From positions 1-32,537 of the forward strand of contig NZ_QTQI01000049.1 of assembly GCF_003853705.1 (NCBI RefSeq): a stretch of 32,537 nt of DNA, given 5' to 3'. Positions within the stretch are counted from its first letter, which is position 1; each line of letters starts with the position of its first letter. The notes below the pieces were generated by a model. It had not been told where the DNA came from. It saw only the letters and a program-made list of their open reading frames with translations, and searched no databases. This stretch comes from Burkholderia sp. Bp8992. Lineage in GTDB: Bacteria > Pseudomonadota > Gammaproteobacteria > Burkholderiales > Burkholderiaceae. Made by a program: the position numbers and the translations under genes. Below are positions 2,621 to 32,537 of this stretch, piece after piece.

Positions 2621-4009
2621 ATGAAAATAAAGACGGGCCTTTTCGGGGTGTTGCTGTCCATCGCGACGGCGACGGCATATGGGTTGGGCGTGCAGGGCAC
2701 GCCTGCAGAACCGGCGGCTTCCGCGCCGGCGGCCAGTCCGGCCATCAAGCTGACGCCGGAGCAGATCGCTGAACGGGCGCGCGCCTATATGGTGCAGATC
2801 GGGGTGAATCCCGATTCGGAAAATGGGCAGATTATCGTCGCGTGGTTCATCCGGGTAGCCCAGAACCCGGCCTATCTCGCCCGACTGTCCAGCATGCGCA
2901 GCCCCTCCGGCGACGGCAGCGACATGATCCTGCGGCCGGCCGAAAGGCTGCGGTTCCTGCGGCTGATGCAGGACATCACAGCCGAATCGAAGAGCGGCTG
3001 CGATATGCCGAAAGTGAGTGGCGGCAATCTGGCGTCGATCGCGAAGACGTCGTCACCGAAGGCGTTGCGGAGCACGTTCGAATTGATGGACCTGATTGGT
3101 GCGCCGAAGGCTGCCTCGTCCGGCGACGATGAGCACTACACCGTCGCCGAATTGCTCGAAGTCGACGCGCGCATGGACGAGATCGACATACCGCCATGGC
3201 TGGAGAAGCAGAACAAGCCGAGCACGTGCGCGCTGGTCAGGTTCGCCGTCGATACGATTGACAAGTTTCCGGAGCCTGAGCAGCGGCGGGCGACCTATGA
3301 ACTCTTCAAGCTGATTGCTGGCGGGAAGTCGGCGCCGGAGACCGTTTTGGCCGATCCCGGTGCGTATCTGGACGACGTGTTCGACGACCGGCGCCTGCCG
3401 GATGCCATTCGCAGCCAGTTGCCGCCCGACGGCAGCCGGCCGCTGCCTTATGCCCGCCTCAGCATAGACGGCGAATGGGTGAACAAGACGACACCGCAGG
3501 ATTCGGGGCCGTACGTCGACACTTACGTCAATCGACGCAACAACGGCGTGGTCGTCGAGCTGATGACCACGAAAGACGCGTCGGGGAACACGAAGTGGGC
3601 GTCGTTCGGCATGGGGTACGGGCTCACCGAGCTGTTGGACCAGACCGTGAGCGCACCCCGGTACGCAAGCATGCTCCGGACGCTGAAGGCAGCGTCCGCG
3701 ATCGTGGCGGCGAACGAACCGATGACCGAGGGCAAGCGTATCGAGATCGCGCTGCCGCAGCCGTCGAGCCACGGGCAGTTGACCCGCCGATGCGAAGTCG
3801 GCAAGACGGAGCCCGCGTCGACGATTTTCCGCACGTTGACCGGCAATGCCGTCAATCTGGATTGCATCGAGGTCCGCAAGGACGGCACGAAGACGCGCGT
3901 GCGCTCCGTCTGGCTGGCCGACTACCGGATCGAATTGAGCAGGACGATCGACGATCAGGACGGCAGAACCGACGTCATCATCAAGAACGTCACGATCACG
4001 CAGCCATGA
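2621..4009 (+). CDS. Exported protein of unknown function, partner of the SEL1 protein
   Basis: A 462-residue protein I do not recognise. The chosen start (MKIKTGLFG) gives a classic signal peptide: short basic end, hydrophobic core, then a small-residue region and an Ala/Pro-rich linker of about 25 residues. The open frame extends upstream to 2417, but those residues look non-coding. The mature part has four cysteines (in SGCDMP, STCALV, TRRCEV and NLDCIEV), compatible with two disulfides in the periplasm. No transmembrane segment follows the signal. Its stop codon overlaps the start of the next gene by an ATGA, so the two are probably translated together and may work together. No function is claimed. 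The ribosome-binding site before 2621 is weak, which leaves some doubt about the start. Confidence 0.7.
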   Translation: MKIKTGLFGVLLSIATATAYGLGVQGTPAEPAASAPAASPAIKLTPEQIAERARAYMVQIGVNPDSENGQIIVAWFIRVAQNPAYLARLSSMRSPSGDGSDMILRPAERLRFLRLMQDITAESKSGCDMPKVSGGNLASIAKTSSPKALRSTFELMDLIGAPKAASSGDDEHYTVAELLEVDARMDEIDIPPWLEKQNKPSTCALVRFAVDTIDKFPEPEQRRATYELFKLIAGGKSAPETVLADPGAYLDDVFDDRRLPDAIRSQLPPDGSRPLPYARLSIDGEWVNKTTPQDSGPYVDTYVNRRNNGVVVELMTTKDASGNTKWASFGMGYGLTELLDQTVSAPRYASMLRTLKAASAIVAANEPMTEGKRIEIALPQPSSHGQLTRRCEVGKTEPASTIFRTLTGNAVNLDCIEVRKDGTKTRVRSVWLADYRIELSRTIDDQDGRTDVIIKNVTITQP

Positions 4010-6903
4010 CGCCGACGGACGAATTTGGGCGGGGCGCGGTCGCGGGTGGGCGGGCGGCATTCGGCCATGCGCCGATATGGCCGATGCGGGCCATCGGCAT
4101 GGCTGTGGCGTTGAGCGTCTGGGCCGGTGACGTTTTCGCGTCGCAACCCGAGTGGTTGCCGCTGTCGTCCGGCCGTGCAGCGGCGACGGCCATTCAACGC
4201 AACGTGCCTGTTCCTGTCGCCGATGATACGACGCCATGCGCGCTGGCATTGAGCGTCTGGTTCGGCAGCGTTCCGTCGTCCGATCGGCCGGAGCGGCGGC
4301 GCAGCCTCTGCCGGCGCGAAGCCGAGGCCGGCAACCTGACGGCCCGCGCGCTCTACGGGCAGATGGTGCTGCATGGCTATGCCGGACGGCCGGACCGGGT
4401 GCACGGCATGACGATCCTCGAATCGGCGGCGAGCGACGGTTCGACACTGGCCAAGCGCACGCTCGGCTACCTCTACTACGACGGTGTCGCGCTGCCTCGG
4501 AACGATGCGGTGGCGCGCGCATGGTTCGCGTCGGCGGCACGCGACGGCGATACGGCGTCGACGAACCAGCTTGGCGGGATGAGTGCGGACGGCGCCGGGC
4601 AACCGGCTGACGACGTGGCCGCCTACCGCTACTTCGTGGCGGCAGCCGAGGGTGGATCGGCGGCGGGAGCGACCAACGCGGGGAAATTCGCGCTGGCAGG
4701 TCGCGGGGTGACGCGCGACCCGGCGGCCGCGGCGGCGTGGCTGGCACGCGCCGCAGCCGCCGGCGAGCCGAACGGGCAGTTCGTTCTCGGGCTGATGCTG
4801 GTCCGGGGCGACGGTATTCCGCGCGATGTCGACCAGGGCGCGGCGTGGCTGCGCGCCGCGGCAGACCAGAAACATACTGAAGCACGGGCGATGCTCGGCA
4901 ATCTCTATCTCGAGGGCAGCGGCGTGCCGCGAGACGCGCATCACGGCTTCGGCCTGATGTCGGCCGCGGCGCAGGCCGGGTCGTCTTACGCACAGCGCCG
5001 GCTCGGCGATCTGTACGGTAGCGGGACCGGCGTGGCGCGCGACGATGCACAGGCGCGCGACTGGTACCGGAAAGCCGCGCTTGCCGGAGACGCGCGGGCG
5101 CGTTATGCGTTGGCCAAGCTCTATCTGTTCGGCCGGGGCGGCCCGATCGACAAGGAGGCGGCATGGGGATGGATGCAGGGCGCAGCTGAAGCGGGGCTGG
5201 CCGCCGCCCAGAACGATCTCGGTGCGATGCTGCAGGACGGCATCGGGACGCCGCCGAATCCATCCGCCGCGAAACCGTGGTTCGAAAAGGCCGACGCGCA
5301 AGGCGATGGCGCGGCGGCAACCAACCTTTCCCGTTACGCGGCACGCGGCGCTGGCGAGCCGGTGGATCTGCACAAGGCCTTTCGGCTTGCGGCACGCGGT
5401 GCGCAGCGCGGCGATGTCGCCGGTGCGCTGATTGCCGCCGGCATGGCGTGGCGCGGTGAGGGGACGCGCGTCGACCGGGCGCAGGCGATGCGGTGGTTTC
5501 GGTTGGCCGCGGACCATGGCGATATCGCGGCGGCGCGGTGGGTCGGCTATCAGCTTCTGATGGGGGGCGACGGCGTGCCGCGCGACGAACAGGCGGGTCT
5601 GCGCTATCTGTCGCAAGCTGCCGACGCTGGCGATCAGGCCGCCGGTGTGTTGATCGGTTTCTACCTGAGCGAGCACCGCATGTCGTTCGCGGGCCGTACC
5701 GGGCTCCAGTGGCTGACGGATCTCGCGGACCGCAAGATGCCCGCCGCGTATTCGGCGCTGGGTTTGCTGTATTGGCGCGAACAGCCGGCGACCGCGTTCG
5801 ACTGGTTCGCACGCGGCGCGAAGCTGGGCGACGCCAGCTCGCAAGCGATGTTGTGCAAGATGCATCTGGATGGCAGCGCCACGCCGCGCAGTCCGGTCGA
5901 GGCCGCGCGCTGGTGCCGCGCGGCGGCCGTCGGCAACAATCCCGGCGCGATGCGTATCCTCGCGTCGGTCGACAACGGCCTGGTTGCCGCCGACGAGCGG
6001 GCGTACTGGCGATGGAAGCTGGCGGATAGCGGCGAGCCGGCGTATCAGTCGATGCTCGGCGATGCATACGACCTGGGCGATGGCGTACCGCTGGATTTCG
6101 ATGCCGCGATGTACTGGTTTCGTCGCGCGGCGGATCGGGGCGATGTCTCCGCGCAGGGTTCCCTTGCCTGGCATCTGTCGAACGGGCTCGGCGGTCGGGC
6201 CGACGACTACGAGGCGTTCGCATGGGCACTGCGCGCCGCGCCGTCGAGCGCCGACGCGAAGCGGATGGTGGGCGTCGCCTATCTGTACGGCCGTGGTGTC
6301 GCGAGCGATCCGAAGGAAGCGTCCATCTGGCTCGACCGTGCGGCTTCGGATGGATCGACGTGGGCGGAAAGCGAGCTTGCGCTGATGTATGAAACGGGCA
6401 AGGGCGTCCCTGTGAATGAAACGACCGCGCTGGCTTTGCATCGTCGCGCTTCCCGCGGCGGCTCGGCGGTTTCCGAGATCGCGCTGGCGCTGCGCGGCGT
6501 CACGCCGGGAGCGGAGGCGGGGCTGTCGGCCGGAGAGCGGCGCTGGCTGGTGCCCGCCGATCCGGCCGCAACGATGTGGAGCGATCCGCCGGTCAACGCG
6601 TTGGCGGCCGCCAATCGTCAATGGGAGGGCTTGTCGAGCCTGAACGAGGCGTTGCGCGGCGATCCGTTCATGCAGTATGCGGCCGGTATCCGGTTCCTGA
6701 CCGGCAACGGCTTGCCGAGAGACCGGGCGCTCGGCGCGGCATGGGTCGAGCGCGCGCGAGCGAGCTTCGAGGCGATACCCGGTCTCGGGCAGTACGGCGC
6801 TGCCGCTGCGCTTGTCGAGTCGCGTATTTTCCGGCGGCTGGATGATGGGGAAAAAAGGCGGGCCGCCGACATCGCCGGGAATCTGATGGCGACACTGCCG
6901 TGA
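4006..6903 (+). CDS. Large exported SEL1-repeat protein
   Basis: A 965-residue protein built almost entirely of SEL1-like repeats (TPR-related, about 36 residues). Successive units read as variants of LGxLYxxGxGVxRDxxxAxxWxxxAA, for example near LGNLYLEGSGVPRD, LGDLYGSGTGVARD and VGVAYLYGRGVASD. Roughly 17-20 units span about residues 100-850, followed by a non-repeat C-terminal region. Such solenoids are protein-interaction scaffolds. The start at 4006 overlaps the previous stop (ATGA); an alternative ATG at 4084 would give a more usual signal peptide (hydrophobic stretch about residues 28-46 of the long form, ending DVFAS). Export to the periplasm or outer envelope is therefore likely. Length is unusual for the family, whose members are often 200-500 residues. 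The partner and pathway are unknown. Confidence 0.85.
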   Translation: MTPTDEFGRGAVAGGRAAFGHAPIWPMRAIGMAVALSVWAGDVFASQPEWLPLSSGRAAATAIQRNVPVPVADDTTPCALALSVWFGSVPSSDRPERRRSLCRREAEAGNLTARALYGQMVLHGYAGRPDRVHGMTILESAASDGSTLAKRTLGYLYYDGVALPRNDAVARAWFASAARDGDTASTNQLGGMSADGAGQPADDVAAYRYFVAAAEGGSAAGATNAGKFALAGRGVTRDPAAAAAWLARAAAAGEPNGQFVLGLMLVRGDGIPRDVDQGAAWLRAAADQKHTEARAMLGNLYLEGSGVPRDAHHGFGLMSAAAQAGSSYAQRRLGDLYGSGTGVARDDAQARDWYRKAALAGDARARYALAKLYLFGRGGPIDKEAAWGWMQGAAEAGLAAAQNDLGAMLQDGIGTPPNPSAAKPWFEKADAQGDGAAATNLSRYAARGAGEPVDLHKAFRLAARGAQRGDVAGALIAAGMAWRGEGTRVDRAQAMRWFRLAADHGDIAAARWVGYQLLMGGDGVPRDEQAGLRYLSQAADAGDQAAGVLIGFYLSEHRMSFAGRTGLQWLTDLADRKMPAAYSALGLLYWREQPATAFDWFARGAKLGDASSQAMLCKMHLDGSATPRSPVEAARWCRAAAVGNNPGAMRILASVDNGLVAADERAYWRWKLADSGEPAYQSMLGDAYDLGDGVPLDFDAAMYWFRRAADRGDVSAQGSLAWHLSNGLGGRADDYEAFAWALRAAPSSADAKRMVGVAYLYGRGVASDPKEASIWLDRAASDGSTWAESELALMYETGKGVPVNETTALALHRRASRGGSAVSEIALALRGVTPGAEAGLSAGERRWLVPADPAATMWSDPPVNALAAANRQWEGLSSLNEALRGDPFMQYAAGIRFLTGNGLPRDRALGAAWVERARASFEAIPGLGQYGAAAALVESRIFRRLDDGEKRRAADIAGNLMATLP

Positions 6904-9250: not shown

Positions 9251-10678
9251 TTACCGCTGCGCCACCGTGCCCGTCTCCCACCAGCCGCCGCCCAGCACCT
9301 TGTACAGCGTGATGAGGTTGGACTGCTTGGCGAGCATGTCCGTGACCAGTTGCTGCTGCGCGGTGTAGAGCGTCCGCTGCGCATCGAGCAGGGTCAGGAA
9401 GCTGTCGGTGCCGCTGCGGTAGCGCGCCTGCGCGAGATCGTAGTACTGCTGCGCCGAGTTCACGTAGTCACGGTCCGCGGCCACCTGGGTGACATACGTG
9501 GTGCGTCCCGCGAGCGCATTCGACACTTCCTTGAACGCCGTCTGGATGGCTTTTTCGTAGTTGGCGATGTCGATGTCCTTTTCGACTTTCGCCACGTCCA
9601 GCGTGGCGCGGTTGTAGCCGAAGTCGAAGAGAGGCACCGAGATGGACGGCGCGAATGTCCATGCGCCCGTGCCCGCCTTGAAGAGGTTCGAGAGGCTGCC
9701 GCTCGTGGTGCCCGCGGAAGCCGTCAGCTCGATCTTCGGAAAGAACGCGGCGCGCGCCGCGCCGATGTTGGCGTTGGCGGCCTTCAGCGTGTGCTCGGCT
9801 TCGACGATGTCGGGCCGGCGCGCGAGCAGATCGGACGGCACGCCTTCGCCGATATCAGTGAACGTGTTCTCGCTTTCCATCAGCGAAGCGCCCTGCGGCA
9901 AATCGTCGGGCAGCGGCGCGCCGATTTCGGCCACCATGTTGTTGCGGTCCTGAGCGACCGCACGCGTGTACGAGGCGAGACTCGACCGCGCGCTCGCCAG
10001 CGAGTTCTCGGCCTGGCGCACGTCCTGCAGCGACGCGCTGCCCATCTTCATCATGTTCACCGTGAGGTCGTAGGTGTGCTGGTCCGCATCCACGGTGTTC
10101 TGCGCGATCTGCAACGAAGCCTCGTCGGAGAGCAGTTGCAGATAGTCGGTGGCGACGGTCGCGATCAGGCTGATCTGCGTGCTGGTGCGCGCGGCGTCCG
10201 TGGCGAGGTACTGCTCGAGCGCCTGGCGCTTCAGGCTGCGCAGGCGGCCGAAGAAGTCGATTTCCCACGACGTGAGGCCCACGCTCGCGCTGCTCGAGCT
10301 GTATGCGCTCGTGGAGCCTGCCACGCGTTCGCGCGTGACCGAGCCGGATGCGTTGATGGTCGGTCCGACGTTGGCGCGCGCAATGCGGTACTGCGCTTCG
10401 TACTGCGCCACGTTGAGCGCGGCTACGCGCATATCGCGGTTGTTCGCGAGCGCGAGTTCGATCAGCTTTTGCAGTCGCGGATCCTTGAAGAAGTCGCGCC
10501 AGCCGAGGTCGGCCCCCAGCGGGGCCGCAGCGGTGCTCTGCGCGGACTTCGGCTGCGCCTGCGCGGGCACGGCGGACCAGGTGTTGTCGACCGGAGCGGC
10601 CGGCCTTTGGTATGTCGGGTCCAGCGTGCAGCCTGCCAGCGCACCCGCGCAAAGAAGGGCGATCAGTGTGCGTTTCAT
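9251..10678 (-). CDS. Outer-membrane efflux channel lipoprotein (OprM/NodT family)
   Basis: A 475-residue TolC-like factor that forms the outer-membrane duct of the tripartite pump. The N-terminus [17 protein letters not shown] is a lipoprotein signal with acylated Cys17. Two outer-membrane-efflux repeats follow, with the typical motifs [12 protein letters not shown], the [21 protein letters not shown] block and [10 protein letters not shown]. The C-terminal region [11 protein letters not shown]-like ([21 protein letters not shown]) is the family hallmark. Its start overlaps the stop of the RND pump by an ATGA, so it is the last gene of the adaptor-pump-channel operon. An open frame extends past 10678 inside the pump gene but is only a shadow. 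Confidence 0.93.
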
Positions 10679-13600
10679 GCGTTGCCCTCGTTGATGTCGG
10701 CGGAGTTCGTGGTGTGACCGTGCTCCTTGAACAGTCTGCGCACCACGACGAAGAAGACCGGTACGAAGAAGATGGCGAGCACCGTGGCCGCGATCATGCC
10801 GCCCGTCACGCCCGTGCCGATGGCGTGGCGTGCGCCGGCGCCGGCACCCGTACTGATGACGAGCGGCAGCACGCCGAACACGAACGCGAGTGAAGTCATG
10901 AGAATGGGGCGCAACCGCATGTGGGCGGCTTCGAGTACGGCGTCCACGACGCTGTGTCCCTGCGCCTGCAGATCCTTCGCGAACTCGACGATCAAAATGG
11001 CGTTCTTCGTGGACAGCCCGATGGTGGCCAGCAGCCCCACCTTGAAGTAGATGTCGTTCGAAAGTCCGCGCCCGTGAGCGGCCAGTAACGCGCCCAGCAC
11101 ACCGAGCGGCACGACGAGCAGCACCGCAAGCGGAATCGACCAGCTTTCGTAGAGGCCCGCAAGGCACAGGAACACGACGACGAGCGAGATCGCATAGAGC
11201 ACCGTGGCTTGCGAGCCGGCCTGCTTCTCCTGATACGACTGGCCTGTCCATTCCACGGCGAAGCCGGGCGGCAGTTTGCGCGCAAGCTGTTCGACTGCCG
11301 TCATCGCCTCGCCGGTGCTCACGCCGGGCGGCGTGGCGGCCGAAATGCCCGTGGCGAGTTGCCGGTTGTAGCGCTCGATCTGTGGCGGCCCGAACGTCCA
11401 GTGGCTCTTTGCGAACGACGAGAAGGGCACCATCGTGGCGTCGTAGCCTGTCGTGCTCGTGGTGGTGCTCGAGGACGACAAGGACGACGAACTCGACGAA
11501 CTGCTGCCTGCCTTCACATACCAGTCGCCAAGGTCGGCAGGCATCATGCGATACGGCGCGTCCGACTGCACATAGACTTTCTGCACGCGCCCCGTGTCGA
11601 TGTAGTTGTTCACGTAGGACGAACCGAACGCGGTCTGCAGCGTGTCGTTGACGTCGGAGACGGAAAGCCCCAGCGCGTTGGCTTTTTCGCGGTCGATGTC
11701 CACCTGCAACTGCGGCGTGTCTTCAAGGCCGGACGGGCGCACCATCGCGAGTGTCGGTTCCTTCGACGCCATGCCGAGAAACTGGTTGCGCACCGCGAGC
11801 AGCTTGTCGTGGCCTGCGCCGCCGCGGTCTTCGATCTCGAAGTCGAGACCGCTTTGCGTACCCAGTTCCTGAATGGCGGGCGGATTCAGCACGAAGATGC
11901 GCGCGTCGCGATTGCCGCCGAAATGCTGGTTGGCGCGCGCGATGATGGCCGGCGCGCTGTCGCGCGAACCGCGCAGGCTCCAGTCCTTGAGCGTCACGAA
12001 CGCGATGGCGTTGTTCTGCCCCTGGCCGTTGAAGCTGAAGCCGTTGATGGCGATGACCTGCTTGACGCCAGGCTCGTCTTTCAGCACGTACTGCTCCACG
12101 GCCTCCACCGTCTTCAGCGTACGCGAGGCCGGCGTGCCCGCGGGCGCGCTGATCGACACGATGAAGTAGCCCTGGTCTTCGTCAGGCAGGAACGAGGAGG
12201 GCAACGTGACGTAGAGCAATGCCACGACGCCGGCGATCACGCTGTAAAGAAGCATGTAACGCGCGGGCCGCGCGACCACGCGTGCGAGCGAGGAACTGTA
12301 GCCCGCATTGCTCTTGGCGAACCACCGGTTGAACCAGCCGAAGAAGCCGCGCTTTTCGTGATGCTCCACGTCGGCGCGCTTGAGCAACGTGGCGCACAGC
12401 GCAGGCGTGAGCGTGAGCGCGAGCATGACCGACAGCAGCATCGCCGAGACGATGGTGATGGAGAACTGCCGGTAGATGGCGCCCGTGGAGCCCGCGAAGA
12501 ACGCCATCGGAATGAAGACGGCGGTGAGCACCGTGGTCACGCCGACCAGGGCGCCGGTAATCTGCCCCATCGCCTTGTGCGTGGCTTCCTTCGGGCCGAG
12601 CTTCTCCTCGCTCATGATGCGCTCGACGTTTTCCACCACCACGATGGCGTCGTCCACGAGCAGGCCGATGGCGAGCACCATCGCGAACATTGAAAGCACG
12701 TTGATCGAAAAGCCGATCATCGACATCACACCGAACGTGCCGAGCAGCGCAACGGGCACCACGATGGTGGGAATCAGCGTGGCGCGCACGTTCTGCAGGA
12801 ACAGGTACATCACGAGGAAGACCAGTACGACCGCTTCGAATAGCGTCTTCACGACCTCTTCGATCGAGATGCGAACGAACGGCGTGGTGTCGTACGGGTA
12901 ACTGATCGCGACGTCCTTCGGCAATTGCAGCTGGATTTCGGCGAGCTTCGCGCGCACCGCGTTGGCTGCATCCAGCGCGTTGGCGCCCGTGGCGAGCTTG
13001 ATGGCGAGCGCGGACGCCGGCTTGCCGTTCAGACGCGACGAGGTGTCGTAGCTGTCGCCGCCCACCTCCACGCGCGCCACGTCCTTCAGCAGCACGCGCG
13101 AGCCGTCGCTGTTCACGCGCAGCAGGATGTCGGCGAACTGGTCTGCGGTCGTCAGCAGGCTCGACGAGCGAATGGTCGCGTTGATGGCCTGCGAATCCGT
13201 TGCCGGCGAGCCGCCTACCTGCCCCGTGGAAAGCTCGACGTTCTGGTTCGTGATGGCCGTGGTCACGTCGGAGGGCGTGAGTCCGAAGCTGTGCAGCTTC
13301 ACCGGATTGAGCCAGATGCGCATGGCGTGCTGCGCGCCGAACAGCGTCACGTCGCCCACGCCGTTCAACTGCGCGAGCGGATCTTCGATCCGGGTCGCGA
13401 TGATGTTGCCGAGATCCACCGAATTCCAGGTGCCGCCCGGCGACGAGAGCGCGATGATCATGAGGAAGTTCGTCGACGCCTTCGCTACCTGCACACCTTG
13501 CTCCTGCACCGTTTGCGGCAGGGTAGGCGTGGCCTGCGTCACCTTGTTCTGCACCTGCACCTGCGCGATGTCGGGATTCGTTCCGGGATTGAACGTCAGC

Positions 13601-13872
13601 GTGATGGTGGCCTGCCCGGCGGAACTGCTCGTGGACGACATGTACAGCACGTTGTCGATGCCGCTCAGCTTCTGCTCGATCACCTGGGTCACGGTTGCAG
13701 CGACGGTGTCGGCGGAGGCGCCGGGGTAAGTGGCCGTCACCTGCACCGAAGGTGGCGCGATGGTGGGGTACTGCGCGACGGGAAGACTCGTGACTGCCGC
13801 CGCGCCCACCAGCATGATGACGATGGCCATGACCCACGCGAGAATGGGACGCTTGATGAAGAACTCTGCCAT
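10675..13872 (-). CDS. RND multidrug efflux pump (HAE-1 family, AcrB-like)
   Basis: A 1065-residue inner-membrane proton-driven transporter, slightly longer than AcrB (1049). It begins [10 protein letters not shown], the standard HAE-1 N-terminus. Twelve transmembrane helices are expected; the proton-relay motif [13 protein letters not shown] (TM4) and the Lys-bearing [15 protein letters not shown] (TM10) are intact. The periplasmic porter and docking parts are present. An oddity is a low-complexity Ser/Thr run at residues 790-808, before TM8, not seen in AcrB or MexB as I know them. It follows the adaptor gene by 12 bp and overlaps the channel gene. A divergent two-component system probably controls it. 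The drug spectrum cannot be told from sequence. Confidence 0.95.
11449..11505 (-). other. Ser/Thr-only insertion within the RND pump
   Basis: These 57 bp encode 19 residues that are all Ser or Thr except one Leu (pump residues 790-808). The serines use AGC, AGT, TCG and TCC in a mix, so this is not a simple trinucleotide slippage tract. It sits in the second periplasmic loop, in a part corresponding to the porter/docking domain of AcrB. Confidence 0.8.
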
Positions 13873-13884
13873 GCCGTTCTCCGC

Positions 13885-15150
13885 CTAGCGCTGTGCCGAC
13901 ACGGTCGAGGCCGTGTCTGTCGCGGGTGCCGCGGGTGCCGCGGATGCCGCGTGCGCCTGCGTCTGCGGCGTATCGGCCGCCACCTTGACCGGCGCGCCCG
14001 CATGCACGCTCTGCAGGCCGCTCACGATCACGCGGTCGCCGGCGTGCAGGCCCGAGGTCACGATCCATTGGTCGCGGAATGCGTTGTCGGCCACCACCTG
14101 CACTTGCTGCGCGTTGCCGGCCGCATCCGCCACGTAGACGCTCGCCTTGCCGTCCGACGCGCGCGTCACGGCCATCTGCGGCACGAGTATCGCGTTGTCG
14201 TTCTCGCCTTCTTCCAGGCGGGCACGCACGAACATGCCCGGCAGCAATTCGCGTTCGGGGTTCGGGAACGTGCTGCGCAGCGTGACCGAACCCGTGGTGG
14301 CGTCCACCGTGACGCCGGAGAACTGCAGCGTGCCGGGATGGGCGTATTCGGTGCCGTCTTCCATCACGAGCGTGACGGCGGCGCTGTCGCTGCCCGTCTT
14401 CCTCAGGCGCCCGGAAGCGAAGGCCTTGCGAAGCCTCAGCCATTCCGTGCTGGAGCGCGTGACGTCGAGGTACATCTGGTCGAACGCCTGGATGGTGGCG
14501 AGCGCGGTGGTCTGGTTCGAGGTGACGAGCGCGCCTTCTGTCACGGTCGATGCGCCGATGCGTCCGGAAATGGGCGCACGCACGCGCGTGTATTCGAGGT
14601 TCACGCGCGCGGATTCGAGCGCCGCCTCGCCGGCCGTGACGCTCGCGGCGTCTTCGCGAACCGCAGCGATGGCATCGTCGTAGTCCTGCTTGCTCACGGC
14701 GTTGATCTTCACGAGTTCGGAGTATCGGTCCGCTTTCGTCCTCGCCGAGGCCAGCGTGGCGCGGGCGTTTTCGAGCGTGCCACGCGCCAGGTCATAGGCA
14801 GCCTGGTAGGTGGCCGGATCGATTTGGTAGAGCACCTGGCCCGCCTTCACGTCGCCGCCTTCCACGAACAAGCGCTTGAGGATGATGCCGCTCACCTGCG
14901 GTCGCACGTCGGAGACCTTCTGCGACGAAAGGCGGCCGGAGAGCTCGGTGGTTTCGACGATGTGCTGCGGCGCGAGCGAGAGCACGCCCACCTGTGCGGT
15001 CTGCGAGGCGGAGCCGCCGGGCGGTGCGCCTGTTTGCCTGTTGCAGCCGGCGGTTCCGACTATCGCAAGTATCGAGAGTGCGGCACACAGCTGGCGCGGC
15101 CTGCACGTCATGTGGTGATGCGCGTGGTTCGGGAGGATTGGCGTCTTCAT
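13885..15150 (-). CDS. RND efflux periplasmic adaptor (AcrA/MexE-like lipoprotein)
   Basis: A 421-residue membrane fusion protein that links pump and channel. A lipobox (ILAIVGTAGC, Cys36) follows a basic N-terminus. The order is typical: beta-barrel start (VTELSGR-like ETTELSGRLSS), lipoyl half with GDVKAGQVLYQIDP, an alpha-helical hairpin rich in Ala/Glu, the second lipoyl half (VRAPISGRIGA), then the barrel with NPERELLPGMFVRARL. It starts at 15150 after a GGAG; an internal ATG at 15111 is possible but has no ribosome-binding site. The stop lies 12 bp before the pump start. The gene is first in the operon, but its upstream region is occupied by a TnpB element, so its present promoter is unclear. 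Confidence 0.93.
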   Translation of the reverse strand: MKTPILPNHAHHHMTCRPRQLCAALSILAIVGTAGCNRQTGAPPGGSASQTAQVGVLSLAPQHIVETTELSGRLSSQKVSDVRPQVSGIILKRLFVEGGDVKAGQVLYQIDPATYQAAYDLARGTLENARATLASARTKADRYSELVKINAVSKQDYDDAIAAVREDAASVTAGEAALESARVNLEYTRVRAPISGRIGASTVTEGALVTSNQTTALATIQAFDQMYLDVTRSSTEWLRLRKAFASGRLRKTGSDSAAVTLVMEDGTEYAHPGTLQFSGVTVDATTGSVTLRSTFPNPERELLPGMFVRARLEEGENDNAILVPQMAVTRASDGKASVYVADAAGNAQQVQVVADNAFRDQWIVTSGLHAGDRVIVSGLQSVHAGAPVKVAADTPQTQAHAASAAPAAPATDTASTVSAQR

Positions 15151-15170
15151 CAGAATTTGCTCCGAGAGAC

Positions 15171-15188
15171 CCCGCCATTGATGGCGGG
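15171..15188. repeat. Perfect hairpin near the left end of the TnpB element
   Basis: CCCGCCAT and ATGGCGGG form a perfect 8-bp inverted repeat around two bases. It lies 21-38 bp upstream of the adaptor start codon and 55-72 bp before tnpB. It may be the left-end recognition hairpin of the element, and when transcribed toward the adaptor gene it could also affect that transcript. Confidence 0.55.
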
Positions 15189-15242
15189 CAGGAAAGGAGT
15201 GCTGTTGACAGGCAACTTCTTCCACGGGTTAGGATCACCTGC

Positions 15243-16295
15243 ATGATCCTTGTCTATCGCTACCGGGTGAAGTCGCTCAACGGACTGCTCAACAAGCAGA
15301 GCCGTGCGGTGAACTACATCTGGAATTTTTGCAATGACACGCAGAAGCACGCGCTCAAGTGGAACAAGAAGTGGCCGACCGGTTTCGACTTGAATGTGCT
15401 CACGACCGGCAGCAGCAAGGCGCTCGGCATCCACTCCGGCACGATCAACGCGACGTGCGAGCAATATGCGAAGTCGCGCAGTCAGCACCGTCGGCCCTAC
15501 CTGCGCTATCGCGGCAGGAAATCGCTCGGCTGGGTGCCGCTGAAGGGACGTGACCTGAAGCGCGAAGGTGACGCGTTCCGTTTTGCCGGCAACACCTTCC
15601 GCGTGTTCAACAGCCGACCGCTTCCCGAAGGCAAGATCAAGGATGGAACCAACTTTGCGCAGGACGCACGCGGCAACTGGTTTCTCAACATCGTGATCGA
15701 GATGCCGGATGTTCAGGCTCGCCCGATCCGTTCCGGCGTTGGCATCGATCTTGGCCTGAAAGACTTCGCCACACTTTCGACAGGCGAGAAGCTGCCCAAT
15801 GACCGGTTCGGTCGACGAGCGGCGGAAAAGCTCGCGAAAACGCAGCGAGCGCGAAAGCACAAGCGACATATCGCGAAGCTGCACGCCAAAGTGGCGAATG
15901 CCCGTGCCGATTTCCAGCACAAGCTCGCGCTCGATCTGGTGCGGCGGTTCGATTACATCGCGGTCGGCAACATGTCGGCCGCAAAACTCGCCAGAACCAG
16001 GATGGCGAAAAGCGTCTACGACGCATCCTGGTCGTCTTTCCGGGACAAGCTCCGTTACAAAGCGATCGCGCACGGAGCCACGTTCGAGGAAGTCGACGAA
16101 AGCGGTTCGACCCAGTCCTGTTCGTCGTGCGGGTCGAAAGATAGTACGACGCGGCCGAAAGGTATCGCGGGACTGCGAGTAAGAGAATGGGCCTGCAGTG
16201 GATGTGGTGTCGTGCATGATCGTGATATCAACGCTGCGCTGAACATTCTCCGATGCGGACGTGCATCGCCAGGTGTGGGAATCCTCCGCCTTTAG
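15243..16295 (+). CDS. tnpB: TnpB-family RNA-guided nuclease homologue with atypical RuvC-II
   Basis: A 350-residue OrfB/TnpB protein, near full length for compact TnpB. The N-terminal helical part contains YIWNFCNDTQ. RuvC-I is intact (GVGIDLGLKDF, Asp169). The zinc ribbon has C293xxC296 and C318xxC321, and RuvC-III is HDRDINAALN. Where canonical TnpB has the RuvC-II Glu (as in VxxEDL/ENL), this protein has IAVGNMSA, with Gly242. A glutamate occurs at VDES (Glu286) just before the ribbon, and could take over the role. The 3' end of the gene runs into the omegaRNA-like right end. TnpB cuts DNA next to a target-adjacent motif, guided by RNA from the element end; whether this one is active is open. 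Confidence 0.88.
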   Translation: MILVYRYRVKSLNGLLNKQSRAVNYIWNFCNDTQKHALKWNKKWPTGFDLNVLTTGSSKALGIHSGTINATCEQYAKSRSQHRRPYLRYRGRKSLGWVPLKGRDLKREGDAFRFAGNTFRVFNSRPLPEGKIKDGTNFAQDARGNWFLNIVIEMPDVQARPIRSGVGIDLGLKDFATLSTGEKLPNDRFGRRAAEKLAKTQRARKHKRHIAKLHAKVANARADFQHKLALDLVRRFDYIAVGNMSAAKLARTRMAKSVYDASWSSFRDKLRYKAIAHGATFEEVDESGSTQSCSSCGSKDSTTRPKGIAGLRVREWACSGCGVVHDRDINAALNILRCGRASPGVGILRL

Positions 16296-16332
16296 GTGGT
16301 GGAGGACGTCAACTTGGACCTGTTTGGGCATC
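16181..16332 (+). ncRNA. Predicted omegaRNA overlapping the tnpB 3' end
   Basis: In TnpB elements the guide RNA is transcribed from the tnpB 3' end through the right end, and the guide is the flanking DNA. Here the terminal part GGAATCCTCCGCC-loop-GGTGGAGGACGTCAA (16279-16312) matches the familiar end of such scaffolds: a GC stem, then GTCAA at the tip. The guide would begin at about 16313 (CTTGGACCTG). The 5' limit is a guess based on typical length. Confidence 0.45.
16283..16305 (+). repeat. Right-end hairpin of the TnpB element
   Basis: CCTCCGCC (16283-16290) pairs with GGTGGAGG (16298-16305) through 8 bp with one G-U in RNA, with a 7-nt loop. It lies 7 bp before the predicted element tip and inside the last codons and stop region of tnpB. 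Confidence 0.7.
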
Positions 16333-16637
16333 GCGATGTCGCGCGATGCGAGAACGGGACGGCACCGGACGCTTCGGTGGTACCTCAGCGGCACCGGTGC
16401 TGGACAAGGCGTAACGCTACCGATGGCACATTTTTTTGTGCTTACGGAAACTTACTGTCCAGTGACGCGCCCGGACAGGGAAAAGAGCATCGGGACTTCG
16501 GCGTACGAAATACCCTCGCGGCCCGGCCCTCGTAGCGGTTCCGTTAGCGATCGCAAATCACAGTAATATTCCGAAAGCCAGTCAGATCGCATCCGGGCTA
16601 CCATCATTCCGTCCTCACGCCGCCCTGAGTTCCCGAA
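16313..16637. promoter_or_regulatory. Upstream region of the two-component genes, probable former divergent promoter region
   Basis: About 325 bp with no gene. It has a perfect 10-bp palindrome GCACCGGTGC (16391-16400), a small hairpin around seven T (16426-16441), and a spaced inverted repeat CTGTCC-N12-GGACAG (16455-16478) that could bind a regulator. A -10-like TAATAT lies at 16564-16569, 68 bp before the regulator gene, without a good -35. If the TnpB element was inserted at 15150/16313, this segment was once the shared intergenic region of the pump operon and the two-component genes. Confidence 0.5.
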
Positions 16638-17387
16638 ATGCACCCACCTTCCATCCCCGACAGCGCCCCGCAAGTCCTGCTCGTCGACGACGATGCGGAA
16701 CTGCGCGACCTGCTGCGCAAGTTCTTCCAGCAGCGCGGCATCGAGTTCTCGGTTCTTCATGACGCAACGAATCTCGCGCGGCGGTTGGAGCGCGAGCGGC
16801 CGGCCATCATCGTGCTGGACCTCATGATGCCGGGCGTGGATGGCATTACCGCGCTCAAGCAACTGCGCGCGAGCGGCGACACGATTCCCGTCATCATGCT
16901 GACCGCGCGCGCCGAAGGCGCGGACCGCGTGCTTGGGCTCGAACTCGGGGCGGACGACTATCTGGGCAAGCCGTTCATGCCGCAGGAACTGCTCGCGCGC
17001 ATCCATGCAGTGCTGCGCCGCCAGGGGCTACCGCGAACCACGGCGGTGCGGGAGAAGCGCGCACCTTGCCGGTTCGGCCGCTTCGAACTGGATTTCTCGA
17101 CGCGCACGCTGCTGTGCGAAGGCACACCCGTGAAGCTTACTGGCGGTGAGTACGCGCTGCTCGAGGTGCTGGCCTCGCACCCCATGGAAACGCTATCGCG
17201 CACGCGGCTCATCGAACTGCTCCACGGTCCGGATGCCGAAGTGACCGAGCGCGGCATCGACGTGCCGGTATGGCGCCTGCGCCGCCTGATCGAGGACGAC
17301 CCATCCAATCCCCGACGGCTGCAAACCGTGCGCGGGATCGGCTACATGTTCATTCCCGACAACCCGGCCGATGAAGAGTCCACTTGA
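16638..17387 (+). CDS. OmpR-family response regulator
   Basis: A 249-residue two-component regulator. The receiver domain (about 12-125) has the acidic pair in VLLVDDD, the phosphorylated Asp61 (IIVLDLMMPG), Thr89 and Lys111 (GKPF). The C-terminal winged helix (about 145-240) shows LTGGEYALLEVL and the recognition part DVPVWRLRRLIEDD followed by VRGIGYMF. All catalytic residues are in place. Its 3' end overlaps the kinase gene by 17 bp. It lies divergent to the RND efflux operon, so control of the pump is the likely job, as in many OmpR-type pump regulators. A TnpB element now lies between the two. Confidence 0.94.
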   Translation: MHPPSIPDSAPQVLLVDDDAELRDLLRKFFQQRGIEFSVLHDATNLARRLERERPAIIVLDLMMPGVDGITALKQLRASGDTIPVIMLTARAEGADRVLGLELGADDYLGKPFMPQELLARIHAVLRRQGLPRTTAVREKRAPCRFGRFELDFSTRTLLCEGTPVKLTGGEYALLEVLASHPMETLSRTRLIELLHGPDAEVTERGIDVPVWRLRRLIEDDPSNPRRLQTVRGIGYMFIPDNPADEEST

Positions 17388-18648
17388 TACGATGTTCGGC
17401 CGGCTCGTCGTCACCACGGTGGGCCTGCTGGTGCTGGTGCATCTTACGTCGCTGCTGTTGATCGAGCGAACGCGCGCGAGCCTCGCCGCCTTCCATATTT
17501 CGCGCGTCGTGGAGGTTGCCGCCAGCATGGGCGGGCAGGACAGCGGCGGCGAGCGGTCCGTGGCGGACATCCTCGGTGTTTCGTTCGTGGACCTGAAGCA
17601 ACTGCCGGCCGCCGACGCGCAGCGCTTTCGCGGCGACACGAACGGGCCCATCGAACGGCAATTGCGGCACGTGCTGCCGCCGGGCACACACGTGGCAATG
17701 GACGAAGACGGCACGCTGCGCGTGCTCCGCGCGGGCAGCACGCGCGGCATCGTGCTGCCGCAAGCCGAGGTGCCGCTCAGCCGTTTCACCGGGGCGCTGG
17801 CGTTGACGCTGATGTTCGCCATCGTGGTTGCCGTCGTGCTTGCCTGGCAACTGAATCGCCCCATTCGCGATCTTGCCGCCGCCGCGCGCGAATATCGCGC
17901 CGGTCGCCATCTGAACATCGTGCGCAAGCGCGGGCCGCGCGAATTACGCGAGCTGATCGGCGACTTCAACGACATGACGGGCGAACTGGCCGTGGCCGAG
18001 CGCGAGCGCGCCGTGATGCTGGCGAGTATCGCGCACGACCTGCGCACACCGCTCACACGCATGCAGGTGCGGGCTGACCTGCTGACCGACCGTGGCGATC
18101 GCGAGGGTTTTTTGCGCGATACCGAGTCGATGTCGCGTGTCATCACGCAGTTTCTCGACTTTGCGCGCGAGATCCCCGAAGGTTCGCCGCAGATCAGCGT
18201 GGACACGTATTGTCGTCGCGATTACGCTGGCGCGCCGAGTCCGAGCGACGAAGCGCACCTGAATGCGCTCGTCACGCTCGATCTTCACGCGGGGCCCGGC
18301 TTCATGCTGCCCACGGTCGATATCGACCGCACGCTCTCGAACCTCGTCGAAAATGCGCTGACCTACGGTGAGCCGCCCGTGGAGATCGCCACGCGGGCGC
18401 ATGGCGAGCACTACGAACTCGTGGTGCGAGACCACGGGCCCGGCGTATCCGAGCTCGATCTCGATCGCGTGCTGCGTCCGTTTGTCCGGCTCGATCCCGC
18501 TCGCGGCGGCACCTCGCACAGCGGCTTGGGCCTGGCCATCGTTCACCGCCTCGTTCGCCATCACGGCGGCACGCTGCAGATCTCCAACGCGGCCGACGGC
18601 GGGCTTGTCGTAGCGATGCGGTTTCCGAAGCACAGCGCCGCGCAATGA
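17371..18648 (+). CDS. EnvZ-type sensor histidine kinase
   Basis: A 425-residue inner-membrane sensor. A first transmembrane helix (about 11-31), a periplasmic sensor of about 110 residues and a second helix (about 141-160) precede a HAMP linker. The H-box ASIAHDLRTPLTRMQ carries His222. The ATPase domain has the N-box TLSNLVENALTYG, a DHGPGV G1 box and SGLGLAIVHRL. The start at 17371 overlaps the regulator gene; an ATG at 17392 is an alternative that keeps the first helix. Kinase and regulator form one operon. The signal is unknown. Confidence 0.93.
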   Translation: MKSPLDTMFGRLVVTTVGLLVLVHLTSLLLIERTRASLAAFHISRVVEVAASMGGQDSGGERSVADILGVSFVDLKQLPAADAQRFRGDTNGPIERQLRHVLPPGTHVAMDEDGTLRVLRAGSTRGIVLPQAEVPLSRFTGALALTLMFAIVVAVVLAWQLNRPIRDLAAAAREYRAGRHLNIVRKRGPRELRELIGDFNDMTGELAVAERERAVMLASIAHDLRTPLTRMQVRADLLTDRGDREGFLRDTESMSRVITQFLDFAREIPEGSPQISVDTYCRRDYAGAPSPSDEAHLNALVTLDLHAGPGFMLPTVDIDRTLSNLVENALTYGEPPVEIATRAHGEHYELVVRDHGPGVSELDLDRVLRPFVRLDPARGGTSHSGLGLAIVHRLVRHHGGTLQISNAADGGLVVAMRFPKHSAAQ

Positions 18649-29529: not shown

Positions 29530-32500
29530 ATGAATCGTATTTACCGGACCATATGGAATGAGGCGCTGGGTGCATGGGTGGCGGCCTCGGAACTGGACTC
29601 GGCGCATGGCAAGGGCGGGCGCTCGGCGACAACAACGGTAGTCGCGCTGGCAGTCGGTCTGCTGTTGGCGGGCGGAATGAATGCGGCCAATGCGGTGACT
29701 TATCCGCCTGACGGTTTAGGTGCCAACGGCTGCACCACGGGTGCCAGCACTTTTCTGGGGCGGTCGTTTGCTGCCGAAGTGAATCCGGTAGACGGGTCCG
29801 GGACTTACTCCAACGTGATTGGATGTAATGCGAACGGGGGAGGTTATCAAGGTCCCAATACCGGGGTGACGTTGTTCGGTTCATATACCACGGCGACAGG
29901 CAACGGGGCCGTGGCGATCGGCATGGCCGGATTGGCGGGCAACCTCGGTACGACTGTCGGCATTTTTTCGACTGCATCGGGTACGTCGAGCTCGGCGTAC
30001 GGCGCGAACGCAACGGCCTCCGGCAATTACGCGTCGGCGTTCGGTTCTGCTGCATCCGCGACGAATACGGGTTCGGTCGCGATTGGAGATAACGCCACTG
30101 CCGGAGCGGTCTCGGCGGCGACGAACGGTATCGCGATCGGCGGGCAAGCGTCGGTGGCCACTGCAGCGACGTCGGGTATTGCTATTGGCCGTGGCGCTAC
30201 AGCGAGCGGCGCCTATGGCATCGCGCAAGGCGACGGGACGATCGCGGGGGCGACCGGGCAGAACGTGGCGATCGGTTCCGCGGGAACGACCGCCAACAGT
30301 TCCACGGCGGCTGGCGGCGCCGTGGCGATCGGGCGAGGACAAACGGCAAGCGGCAACGGCGCGGTGGCAATCGGGGATCCGAATGTCGCAATCGGGACGG
30401 GGGCGGTTGCAGCCGGCGCAAACGACAATGCAACCGGCCAGGGCGCGGTCGCGCTCGGCAACGCGAGTACGGCAACCGGCCAGGGCTCCGTTGCGCTGGG
30501 CAACAGCGGAACGGCTTCCGCGGCAGGCGGCGTGGCACTCGGCGACACCGCGGTGGCCAGTGCAACCAATGCCCAGGCATTCGGTTCGGGATCGATCGCG
30601 AATGTGGCGGGATCAGTTGCGCTGGGATCGGGGGCTGTCACGGCAGGGGCAGCCACGTCGGCCACGGGCGGCACGGGGGCGGTCAGCAGCACGACCATCG
30701 GTGGTCAGACCTTCGGTGCCTATGCAGGCACCAATGCGTCGGCCGGGGTTGTCAGCGTTGGGTCGCCCGGTGCGGAACGACGGATTCAGAACGTCGCAGC
30801 GGGTTTGGTCGGTGCGGCAAGTACGGATGCGATCAATGGCAGCCAACTCTACGCAGTGGCGAGCACGACCACATCGAGCATCTCGTCGTTGTCGACTTCC
30901 ACGTCGACGGGTATCAGTTCGCTTTCTACGGGGCTGTCGAGCACGAATAGCACGGTGACGTCACTGTCCTCGACACTTTCGTCGTCCACTAGCGCGATCA
31001 ATTCACTGTCGACGGGCTTGTCGTCGACCGACAGTTCGGTCACGTCGTTGTCGACCTCCACGTCGACCGGTCTGTCGTCGGCGAATAGCTCGATCACTTC
31101 GCTGTCCACGTCGACGTCGACCGGCCTGTCGTCGGCCAATAGCTCAATCACTTCGCTGTCGACTTCGACATCGACCGGTCTGTCGTCGGCGAATAGCTCG
31201 ATCACTTCGCTGTCCACCTCCACGTCGACCGGTCTGTCGTCGGCGAATAGCTCGATCACTTCGCTGTCCACGTCGACGTCGACCGGCCTGTCGTCGGCCA
31301 ATAGCTCAATCACTTCGCTGTCGACTTCGACATCGACCGGTCTGTCGTCGGCGAATAGCTCGATCACTTCGCTGTCCACCTCGACGTCGACCGGTCTGTC
31401 GTCGGCGAATAGCTCGATCACTTCGCTGTCCACGTCGACGTCGACCGGCCTGTCGTCGGCCAATAGCTCAATCACTTCGCTGTCGACTTCGACATCGACC
31501 GGTCTGTCGTCGGCGAATAGCTCGATCACTTCGCTGTCCACCTCCACGTCGACCGGTCTGTCGTCGGCGAATAGCTCGATCACTTCGCTGTCCACGTCGA
31601 CGTCGACCGGCCTGTCGTCGGCCAATAGCTCAATCACTTCGCTGTCCACGTCGACGTCGACCGGCATCAGCTCACTGTCGACCGGCCTGAGTTCGACCAA
31701 CAGCTCGGTGACATCGCTGTCGACGTCGACCTCGACCGCGATCAACGCTGCGAAGACGCACTATTACAGCGTCAACGACAACGGTACGCAGCAAGGCAAT
31801 TACAACAACGACGGTGCCACGGGCATCAATGCACTCGCCGCTGGCACGAATGCAAGTGCATCGGGTACGAGCAGCGTTGCCGTCGGCGATGGCTCGCGCG
31901 CGTCGTCGGACGGCGCGGTCGCGATTGGCAAGAGCGCATCGGCAACGGGTGGCAAGGCCGTGTCGATCGGCGTCGCGAACACGGCGAGCGGCGACGGCGC
32001 GGTTGCAATCGGCGATCCGAGCGTCGCGACGGGCACGGGCGCGGTCGCAATGGGCGCGAACAACACGGCGACCGGTAACGGCGCAGTGGCGCTCGGCAGC
32101 GCGAATACGGCCGTCGGCGACGGCTCGCTTGCGTTGGGCAACGCGTCGACGGCGGGCGCCGCTGGCTCGCTGGCATTCGGTGCGAACGCGATTGCGAAGG
32201 GTGCCAACGATGTCGCACTTGGTTCGGGCTCGGTCACCGCGGCGCCGAATCCGACCAGTAGCGTCACAATCGGCACGACGACGTTTGGCAACTTTGCCGG
32301 AACTACGCCAGCGAGTGTGGTGAGTGTCGGTGCGCCAGGCGCGGAGCGTCAGGTTACCAATGTCGCAGCTGGTCAAGTCACGTCGTCCAGTACGGACGCG
32401 ATCAACGGCAGTCAGCTATATTCGGTCGCGAGCACGACCACATCGAGCATCTCGTCGCTTTCGACTTCCACGTCGACGGGTATCAGTTCGCTTTCTACGG

Positions 32501-32537
32501 GGCTGTCGAGCACGAATAGCACGGTGACGTCACTGTC
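29530..32537 (+). CDS. Trimeric autotransporter adhesin (YadA/BpaC-like), N-terminal part
   Basis: An open frame of over 1000 codons running off the right edge without stop. It starts with an extended signal peptide (MNRIYRTIWNEALGAWVAAS), then a hydrophobic core ending near NAANA (residue 55). The first YadA-like head (about residues 110-410) repeats AVAIGxxATAxGxGS-type units. A neck follows at 415-442 (ERRIQNVAAG ... INGSQLYAV), then a Ser/Thr-rich stalk (443-738), the KTHYYSVNDNG boundary at about 742, a second head (about 760-930) and a second neck near 938. The last 110 bp repeat the start of the stalk. The translocator barrel lies outside the window. AGGGG precedes the ATG. These proteins bind host matrix or cells and mediate autoaggregation. 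No upstream operon partner is seen. Confidence 0.93.
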   Translation, partial: MNRIYRTIWNEALGAWVAASELDSAHGKGGRSATTTVVALAVGLLLAGGMNAANAVTYPPDGLGANGCTTGASTFLGRSFAAEVNPVDGSGTYSNVIGCNANGGGYQGPNTGVTLFGSYTTATGNGAVAIGMAGLAGNLGTTVGIFSTASGTSSSAYGANATASGNYASAFGSAASATNTGSVAIGDNATAGAVSAATNGIAIGGQASVATAATSGIAIGRGATASGAYGIAQGDGTIAGATGQNVAIGSAGTTANSSTAAGGAVAIGRGQTASGNGAVAIGDPNVAIGTGAVAAGANDNATGQGAVALGNASTATGQGSVALGNSGTASAAGGVALGDTAVASATNAQAFGSGSIANVAGSVALGSGAVTAGAATSATGGTGAVSSTTIGGQTFGAYAGTNASAGVVSVGSPGAERRIQNVAAGLVGAASTDAINGSQLYAVASTTTSSISSLSTSTSTGISSLSTGLSSTNSTVTSLSSTLSSSTSAINSLSTGLSSTDSSVTSLSTSTSTGLSSANSSITSLSTSTSTGLSSANSSITSLSTSTSTGLSSANSSITSLSTSTSTGLSSANSSITSLSTSTSTGLSSANSSITSLSTSTSTGLSSANSSITSLSTSTSTGLSSANSSITSLSTSTSTGLSSANSSITSLSTSTSTGLSSANSSITSLSTSTSTGLSSANSSITSLSTSTSTGLSSANSSITSLSTSTSTGISSLSTGLSSTNSSVTSLSTSTSTAINAAKTHYYSVNDNGTQQGNYNNDGATGINALAAGTNASASGTSSVAVGDGSRASSDGAVAIGKSASATGGKAVSIGVANTASGDGAVAIGDPSVATGTGAVAMGANNTATGNGAVALGSANTAVGDGSLALGNASTAGAAGSLAFGANAIAKGANDVALGSGSVTAAPNPTSSVTIGTTTFGNFAGTTPASVVSVGAPGAERQVTNVAAGQVTSSSTDAINGSQLYSVASTTTSSISSLSTSTSTGISSLSTGLSSTNSTVTSL
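30859..30968 (+). repeat. 110-bp near-identical duplication in the adhesin stalk, first copy
   Basis: This stretch, from GCGAGCACGACC onward, recurs at 32428-32537 with only a few mismatches (the difference is around TCGTTGTCG versus TCGCTTTCG). The second copy follows the second neck, so the whole head-neck-stalk module appears to have been duplicated. The second copy touches the window edge, so the full length is unknown. Confidence 0.85.
31048..31641 (+). repeat. Eleven tandem 54-bp repeats in the adhesin stalk, 162-bp higher-order period
   Basis: Each unit encodes LSTSTSTGLSSANSSITS (18 residues). The eleven units fall into three nucleotide types. After one leading A-type unit, the order B-C-A is repeated three times, and a final B closes the array. 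B uses GGCC and CAATAGCTCAATC, C uses CTGTCGACTTCGACATCG, and A uses CACCTCCACG or CACCTCGACG. Protein sequence is unchanged between types. This shows past amplification in units of three (162 bp). Copy number may vary by slippage or recombination. Confidence 0.9.

Follow-up and report, generated by a model that had tools for sequence, protein, structure and literature searches.

Transposable elements in which tnpB is the only gene are very common, and their persistence has mostly been discussed in terms of guide-directed cutting. The question of what else may keep them in genomes is raised by Burkholderia sp. Bp8992, in which one such element lies between an RND efflux pump operon and a divergent OmpR/EnvZ regulator pair. 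The locus is contained in a stretch of 32,537 nucleotides of contig NZ_QTQI01000049.1, hereafter called the window. On balance, we think it probable that the Burkholderiaceae family to which this element belongs persists mainly where it costs the host least, immediately in front of an opposite-strand start codon, by means of an insertion that translation tolerates.

The junction between element and host is the first line of evidence. Read on the other strand, the family's target (T)TCAT gives ATGA(A); in most copies a GGAG word in the left end stands 6 or 9 nt before the host ATG, and the antisense frame usually ends as TGATG over that ATG. The copies sampled were near-complete ones together with loci located by searches, with partial copies and some others (for instance, two broken ones) left out. 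In total, 114 DNA-matching loci (window included) were collected, 94 passed a left-end anchor, and clustering of the flanks yielded 85 distinct sites. The anchor required CAT and a GCTCC-like word, and CAT at the left is thus present by construction; the 20 loci that it dropped comprised 4 fragments, several eroded left ends and one copy with TTCGT. Of the 94 anchored copies, 93 have NTCAT on the left side of the element (CAT itself being demanded by the anchor), and 88 have GGAG at a distance of 9 or 6 nt from the ATG. When the anchor is set aside, GCTCC is detected close to the left end in 90 of the 114 loci (4 of the 114 are fragments without a left end), and CAT was located 5-13 nt before GCTCC in 88. 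The family is widespread: of the 65 genomes in the genus to which relative L001 belongs, 34 contain TnpB matches at E <=1e-60, with up to 12 per genome when partial ones are included. In the genus of relative L002, TnpB matches at the same threshold were obtained in 16 of 144 genomes, a count that scores the best 14 candidates per genome and includes relatives at 40-50% identity. In seven groups, the copies occupy a common insertion site (e.g., L174, L111 and L121; L094, L107 and L198), having been either inherited or re-inserted via guide-directed homing.

The sites themselves tend to be gene starts. An opposite-strand gene start was called at 54 of the 85 distinct sites, compared with 186 of 1942 control NTCAT sites (p = 2e-31) taken from 400 kb of four element-carrying genomes. 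A displaced host Shine-Dalgarno word just past the right end was present at 38/85 sites versus 223/1942 controls (p = 1e-13), and a whole-gene caller placed starts at 40 of 88 copies versus 137 of 1919 controls; both start-calling methods use one codon table, built from seed genes. A target motif combined with purging might produce this pattern alone: if TCAT is needed and within-gene insertions are lost, many of the surviving sites would be starts, and GGAG and TGATG would be by-products of the element's ends. In line with this, ATGA is the commonest start tetramer in the control genes (142; the eight commonest total 324), and starts already account for 137 of the 606 control sites outside gene interiors. 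The copies nevertheless exceed this baseline, with 40 starts in 72 once interiors are excluded, and purging leaves both the stop-free antisense frame and the frame-keeping lengths of the left end (LE) unexplained. As a sufficient account, we regard it as unlikely.

The antisense frame is the second line of evidence: stops are almost entirely kept out of the complement of tnpB, although the amino-acid sequence read from it drifts. In the phase of the tnpB codons, this strand is open across the whole element in 70 of 88 copies, whereas the other two antisense frames contain 11.3 and 10.5 stops on average. In the 85 intact coding sequences (CDSs), the codons that read as antisense stops (TTA, CTA and TCA) together occur 0.07 times per CDS in phase, versus 8.8 and 9.4 times in the other phases. 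By parsimony, third-position changes to A were found in 0 of 56 cases for TCN and 1 of 142 for CTN, compared with 373 of 1340 in columns of the six four-fold families Thr, Pro, Arg, Ala, Gly and Val (p = 1.3e-24); these counts rest on one FastTree tree, with changes treated as independent. Six antisense-stop codons occur in the 85 CDSs: five, in columns 338 and 348, are upstream of the antisense ATG, and the sixth, in column 237, is downstream of it. Among four examined copies in which tnpB is broken, one contains an antisense stop and three contain none.

Two other causes of the scarcity of TCA were considered and rejected. The first was host codon bias: control genes use TCA (2.2% of TCN) similarly to CCA and ACA, with CTA rare as well (0.55%), and 17 diverged TnpBs, counted without the five near-identical loci L146-L150, use TCA in 43 of 243 TCN codons and CTA in 17 of 388. 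The second was avoidance of TCAT or TCAA as such: out of phase TCA is frequent (7.33 per CDS in phase 1), and the avoidance extends to CTA.

An open frame of this kind could also encode a functional protein of the element. It spans 355 codons, and its ATG (window 16217) coincides with a His codon spelled CAT in all 85 copies. Between this ATG and the stop that overlaps the host start codon, the open reading frame (ORF) remains intact in 69 of the 85, and a stop well inside occurs in 1 of 85. However, the mean identity of the antisense peptide is 0.765, versus 0.933 for TnpB, and the peptide is conserved no further than TnpB may impose. Four-fold sense sites change freely except in the last ~50 tnpB codons, which are conserved at synonymous sites, presumably as the guide-RNA scaffold, and the conserved CAT falls within this 3′ part. 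The frame has neither an NCBIfam match nor a Shine-Dalgarno word, and a functional antisense protein seems to us highly improbable.

The left end of the element maintains the frame outside tnpB as well. The LE, which lies outside tnpB, measures 86, 89, 92, 116 or 119 nt in 81 of the 85 intact copies, that is, 2 mod 3 in 81/85, and the complement of the right end begins with TTGACG in 84 of 88 copies. In 20 of 85 copies (those with an LE of 116 or 119), a 27-base insertion is located inside the left-end hairpin, with the frame kept. Taken with the junction, these features suggest the following course of events. The host mRNA would read through the element antisense to tnpB, and ribosomes would follow the antisense open frame, so that the long leader would not be cut off by Rho; translation would then end at UGA and begin anew at the host AUG via the element's Shine-Dalgarno site. 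At the other end, TTGACG would also terminate an upstream gene that overlaps the start as ATGA.

A stronger version, which we put forward tentatively and with some doubt, is that the family is translation-transparent by design: it would land on starts, swap the ribosome-binding site, provide a TTGA stop/start for the upstream reading and keep a stop-free antisense frame ending in UGAUG. If true, a transposon gene would be constrained on both strands, on one for its protein and on the other solely for readability. Low host cost built into the ends and the tnpB codons would then offer a second, testable reason for the persistence of tnpB-only elements, and the antisense strand shows a strong signal of selection, which can be sought in other element families.

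Several observations weigh against low host cost before start codons as the explanation. First, 31 of the 85 sites were not called as starts, including the window's own site, which both start-calling methods miss because the caller misses the adaptor gene. The start-site excess must also come partly from loss of within-gene insertions, as the comparison outside gene interiors (40/72 copies versus 137/606 controls) indicates. Exact overlap of the antisense ORF with the host ATG is absent in 16 of 85 copies, in 9 of which only the last codon is changed; a further 4 have a shift, in 2 the stop comes one codon too soon, and 1 stops well inside. Divided by three, the length of the whole element leaves the usual remainder in 72 of 85 copies and another one in 13. 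In the window, no Shine-Dalgarno-led start was found for the antisense frame, and GGAG and AUG are partly paired in the predicted RNA fold. Later starts are also possible for the adaptor gene: the window and most relatives have an in-frame ATG at codon 14, L240 has one at codon 15, and L241 has two, at codons 3 and 10. Finally, members of a second TnpB subfamily (L131, L132 and L145-L149; 41-43% identical) contain 0-1 antisense-stop codons among 44-49 Leu/Ser codons, and given the scarcity of antisense stops in L131 and L145-L149, the trait is not necessarily linked to landing on start codons. As a separate observation on this subfamily, the left ends of L145, L146 and L148 read TTCAC followed by CAATG, the complement of which would be a GTG start.

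At the locus itself, the ORF list and family searches agree on an RND adaptor/permease/outer-membrane operon at 9251-15150 on the minus strand and, divergent from it, an OmpR-type regulator with an EnvZ-like kinase at 16638-18648 on the plus strand. The preliminary description had proposed this arrangement with a TnpB element of ~1.16 kb between the two gene sets, and its limits proved exact to the base. Alignment against four empty relatives (L001, L024, L002 and L003) revealed a single clean extra block at 15151-16312, 1162 bp in length, with no target duplication; in the empty relatives, the left flank TTCAT (TTCAA in L001) is directly joined to the right flank. The same description had called for alignment with relatives lacking tnpB, and eight distinct genomes (L001/G001, L024/G002, L002, L003, G067, G068, G042 and G032) have an element-free adaptor and regulator that are divergent, adjacent and ~313-336 bp apart. 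The full 888-base regulator-side query was present in 6 of the 65 genomes of L001's genus, all 6 without the element, and the more distant loci L007, L008, L010 and L014 share the divergent order, with no tnpB match above 100 bits. In Trinickia (L019), unlike the window, the regulator genes are co-oriented with the pump. Given the clean block and the eight element-free divergent genomes, the window therefore contains, as judged from these alignments, a derived insertion into an otherwise intact shared intergenic region.

At this site, the complement of TTCAT likely provides the start codon for the pump adaptor. Eight of nine aligned sequences (window included) have ATG as codon 1 and the ninth has TTG, and the frame is gapless through the first codons across all nine. 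A start at codon 14 was considered, but codon 1 is the preferred candidate, given that ATG is absent at that position in L240 and L241, though both have other in-frame ATGs. If translation starts at codon 1, the insertion separates the pump's own leader from the start codon. Because the element inserted at this likely start codon, the shared intergenic DNA remains in one piece, 325 bp uninterrupted to the right of the element and beside the regulator gene. The pump leader is 1162 nt longer and antisense to tnpB, the pump's Shine-Dalgarno region is replaced by the left end of the element, and the TGA of TGATG consists of the last two element bases and the A of the pump start codon.

From the separation of pump and regulator, it had been supposed that regulation was lost or a promoter gained from the element, with drug resistance changed in either case. 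It is true that 1162 bp now separate the promoter region from the pump gene, and a simple sigma-70 scan of 15100-16700, which found no promoter, was equally silent at the pump, regulator and tnpB genes and is too insensitive here to count against an element promoter. Lost contact nevertheless sits poorly with a shared intergenic region and a candidate regulator box that are intact and undivided, and we consider this scenario quite unlikely. In place of lost regulation, our prediction for the pump is the same promoter, a longer leader and a new ribosome-binding site: judging from the layout, transcription of the pump probably still begins at its original promoter, and its translation probably relies on the site that the element supplies.

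The tnpB gene is the sole gene between the element ends, and the Y1 transposase TnpA is not in the element. The protein matches PF07282 (1e-21), PF01385 (9e-15) and NF040570 (227 bits, cut-off 100). For the guide RNA expected of such elements from the right end and flank, no Rfam match was obtained in 15000-16800. With a RuvC and zinc-ribbon TnpB, hairpin ends, insertion 3′ of a fixed short target and no duplication, the element was filed as a tnpB-only IS200/IS605 type, a group which we take to be the IS1341-like group. A search for PF01797 in 12 element-carrying genomes gave strong matches in two (149 and 122 bits, the second with stops), weak or partial matches alone above cut-off in nine, and one result below cut-off. 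The strong matches, L266 (G049 C36:21443-21808) and L267 (G011 C8:95889-96254), each lie ~1 kb from a different TnpB, and therefore neither is clearly the transposase of the family studied here.

The canonical RuvC-II glutamate of this TnpB is replaced by glycine (VGNM in the alignment to a solved relative), which raises the possibility of a TldR-like, nuclease-dead TnpB whose guide RNA represses the pump. However, there is a glutamate six positions ahead of the first CxxC (ESGSTQSCSSC), and both aspartates are present, so that the protein is not TldR-like on sequence, and the many copies have different flanks and hence different presumed guides; such a role is barely credible. According to the available portion of PMC10711439, Ealt TnpBs have a glutamate at this alternative position and have lost the canonical one. 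The TnpB studied here thus appears to carry a complete rearranged (Ealt) catalytic set. With its flank as guide, which differs at 1-2 of 21 nt from the empty pump alleles L238/L239 and L236, it would be expected to cut those alleles.

Table 1. Coordinates in the window of the element, its parts and the adjoining pump and regulator genes.
Feature	Position	Strand	Basis
tnpB-only IS200/IS605-type element, 1162 bp, no target duplication	15151..16312	+	Four empty relatives; family copies with the same ends
Target/transposon-associated motif TTCAT; complement ATGAA, likely adaptor start (ATG 15150-15148, minus)	15146..15150	+	Family copies; codon-1 conservation
TGATG, antisense-frame stop overlapping pump start codon	15148..15152	-	Sequence
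LE, with hairpin at 15171-15188	15151..15242	+	Minus-strand fold
Element-borne Shine-Dalgarno-like GGAG, 9 nt before pump ATG	15160..15163	-	Sequence; family copies
Open frame antisense to tnpB and in its codon phase; 355 codons and a TGA stop	15150..16217	-	Sequence; family copies
tnpB, 350 aa: RuvC-I D (GIDLG), Ealt E (E-SGSTQS-CSSC), zinc ribbon, RuvC-III D (HDRD)	15243..16295	+	Sequence, family searches, alignment
Right end: hairpin and terminal GTCAA; complement starts TTGACGTCC	16283..16312	+	Right-end alignment
Presumed guide, flank right of element	16313..16332	+	Position by analogy with known TnpB elements
Candidate response-regulator box, direct repeat CTTAC-N5-CTTAC (CTTACGGAAACTTAC), putative role	16441..16455		Identical in 8/9 aligned sequences, window included
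RND periplasmic adaptor gene	13885..15150	-	Family searches
RND permease gene	10675..13872	-	Family searches
Outer-membrane efflux protein gene	9251..10711	-	Family search
OmpR-family response regulator	16638..17387	+	Family searches
EnvZ-like histidine kinase	17371..18648	+	Family searches

Coordinates of all these features are collected in Table 1. The closest matches to the pump permease are from Burkholderia sp. BCC0506 and B. cenocepacia NCTC13227, at 97% identity. Elsewhere in the window, an open frame with eight Sel1 repeat matches is located at 3475-6903, and a YadA-like trimeric autotransporter gene at 29530-32535 runs off the window.

A literature search that mostly lacked subscription papers yielded, among the titles and abstract openings of the matches listed, nothing on TnpB elements that target start codons, bear a ribosome site in the left end or keep an open frame on the antisense strand, and a word search of the available text of PMC8303175 and PMC9956272 gave nothing of use on these features. 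Compared with known tnpB-without-tnpA elements of the IS200/IS605 type, the element is alike in its RuvC/zinc-ribbon TnpB, hairpin ends, terminal GTCAA, fixed left target and lack of duplication; it differs in a target that is the complement of a start codon, a ribosome-binding word in the left end and a nearly stop-free antisense strand. TldRs are defined by loss of RuvC catalytic residues together with a guide fixed against one promoter. The element resembles them in being TnpB-derived and adjoining a host gene start, but it has a complete catalytic set and is a multi-copy mobile element, whereas TldRs are nuclease-dead TnpB repressors, as described in the available part of PMC13418256. With the Ealt TnpBs, as far as they are covered in the accessible text of PMC10711439, it shares the glutamate six residues before the first CxxC and the loss of the canonical position; the pro-Fanzor group has DPG where the RuvC-I motif here is DLG. 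A parallel in host effect is provided by IStrons, in which, according to the available portion of PMC4227781, an intron splices the mobile element out of RNA. Both are mobile elements with a device that lowers damage to the host gene, but the IStron device acts by RNA splicing, whereas the one proposed here would work at translation.
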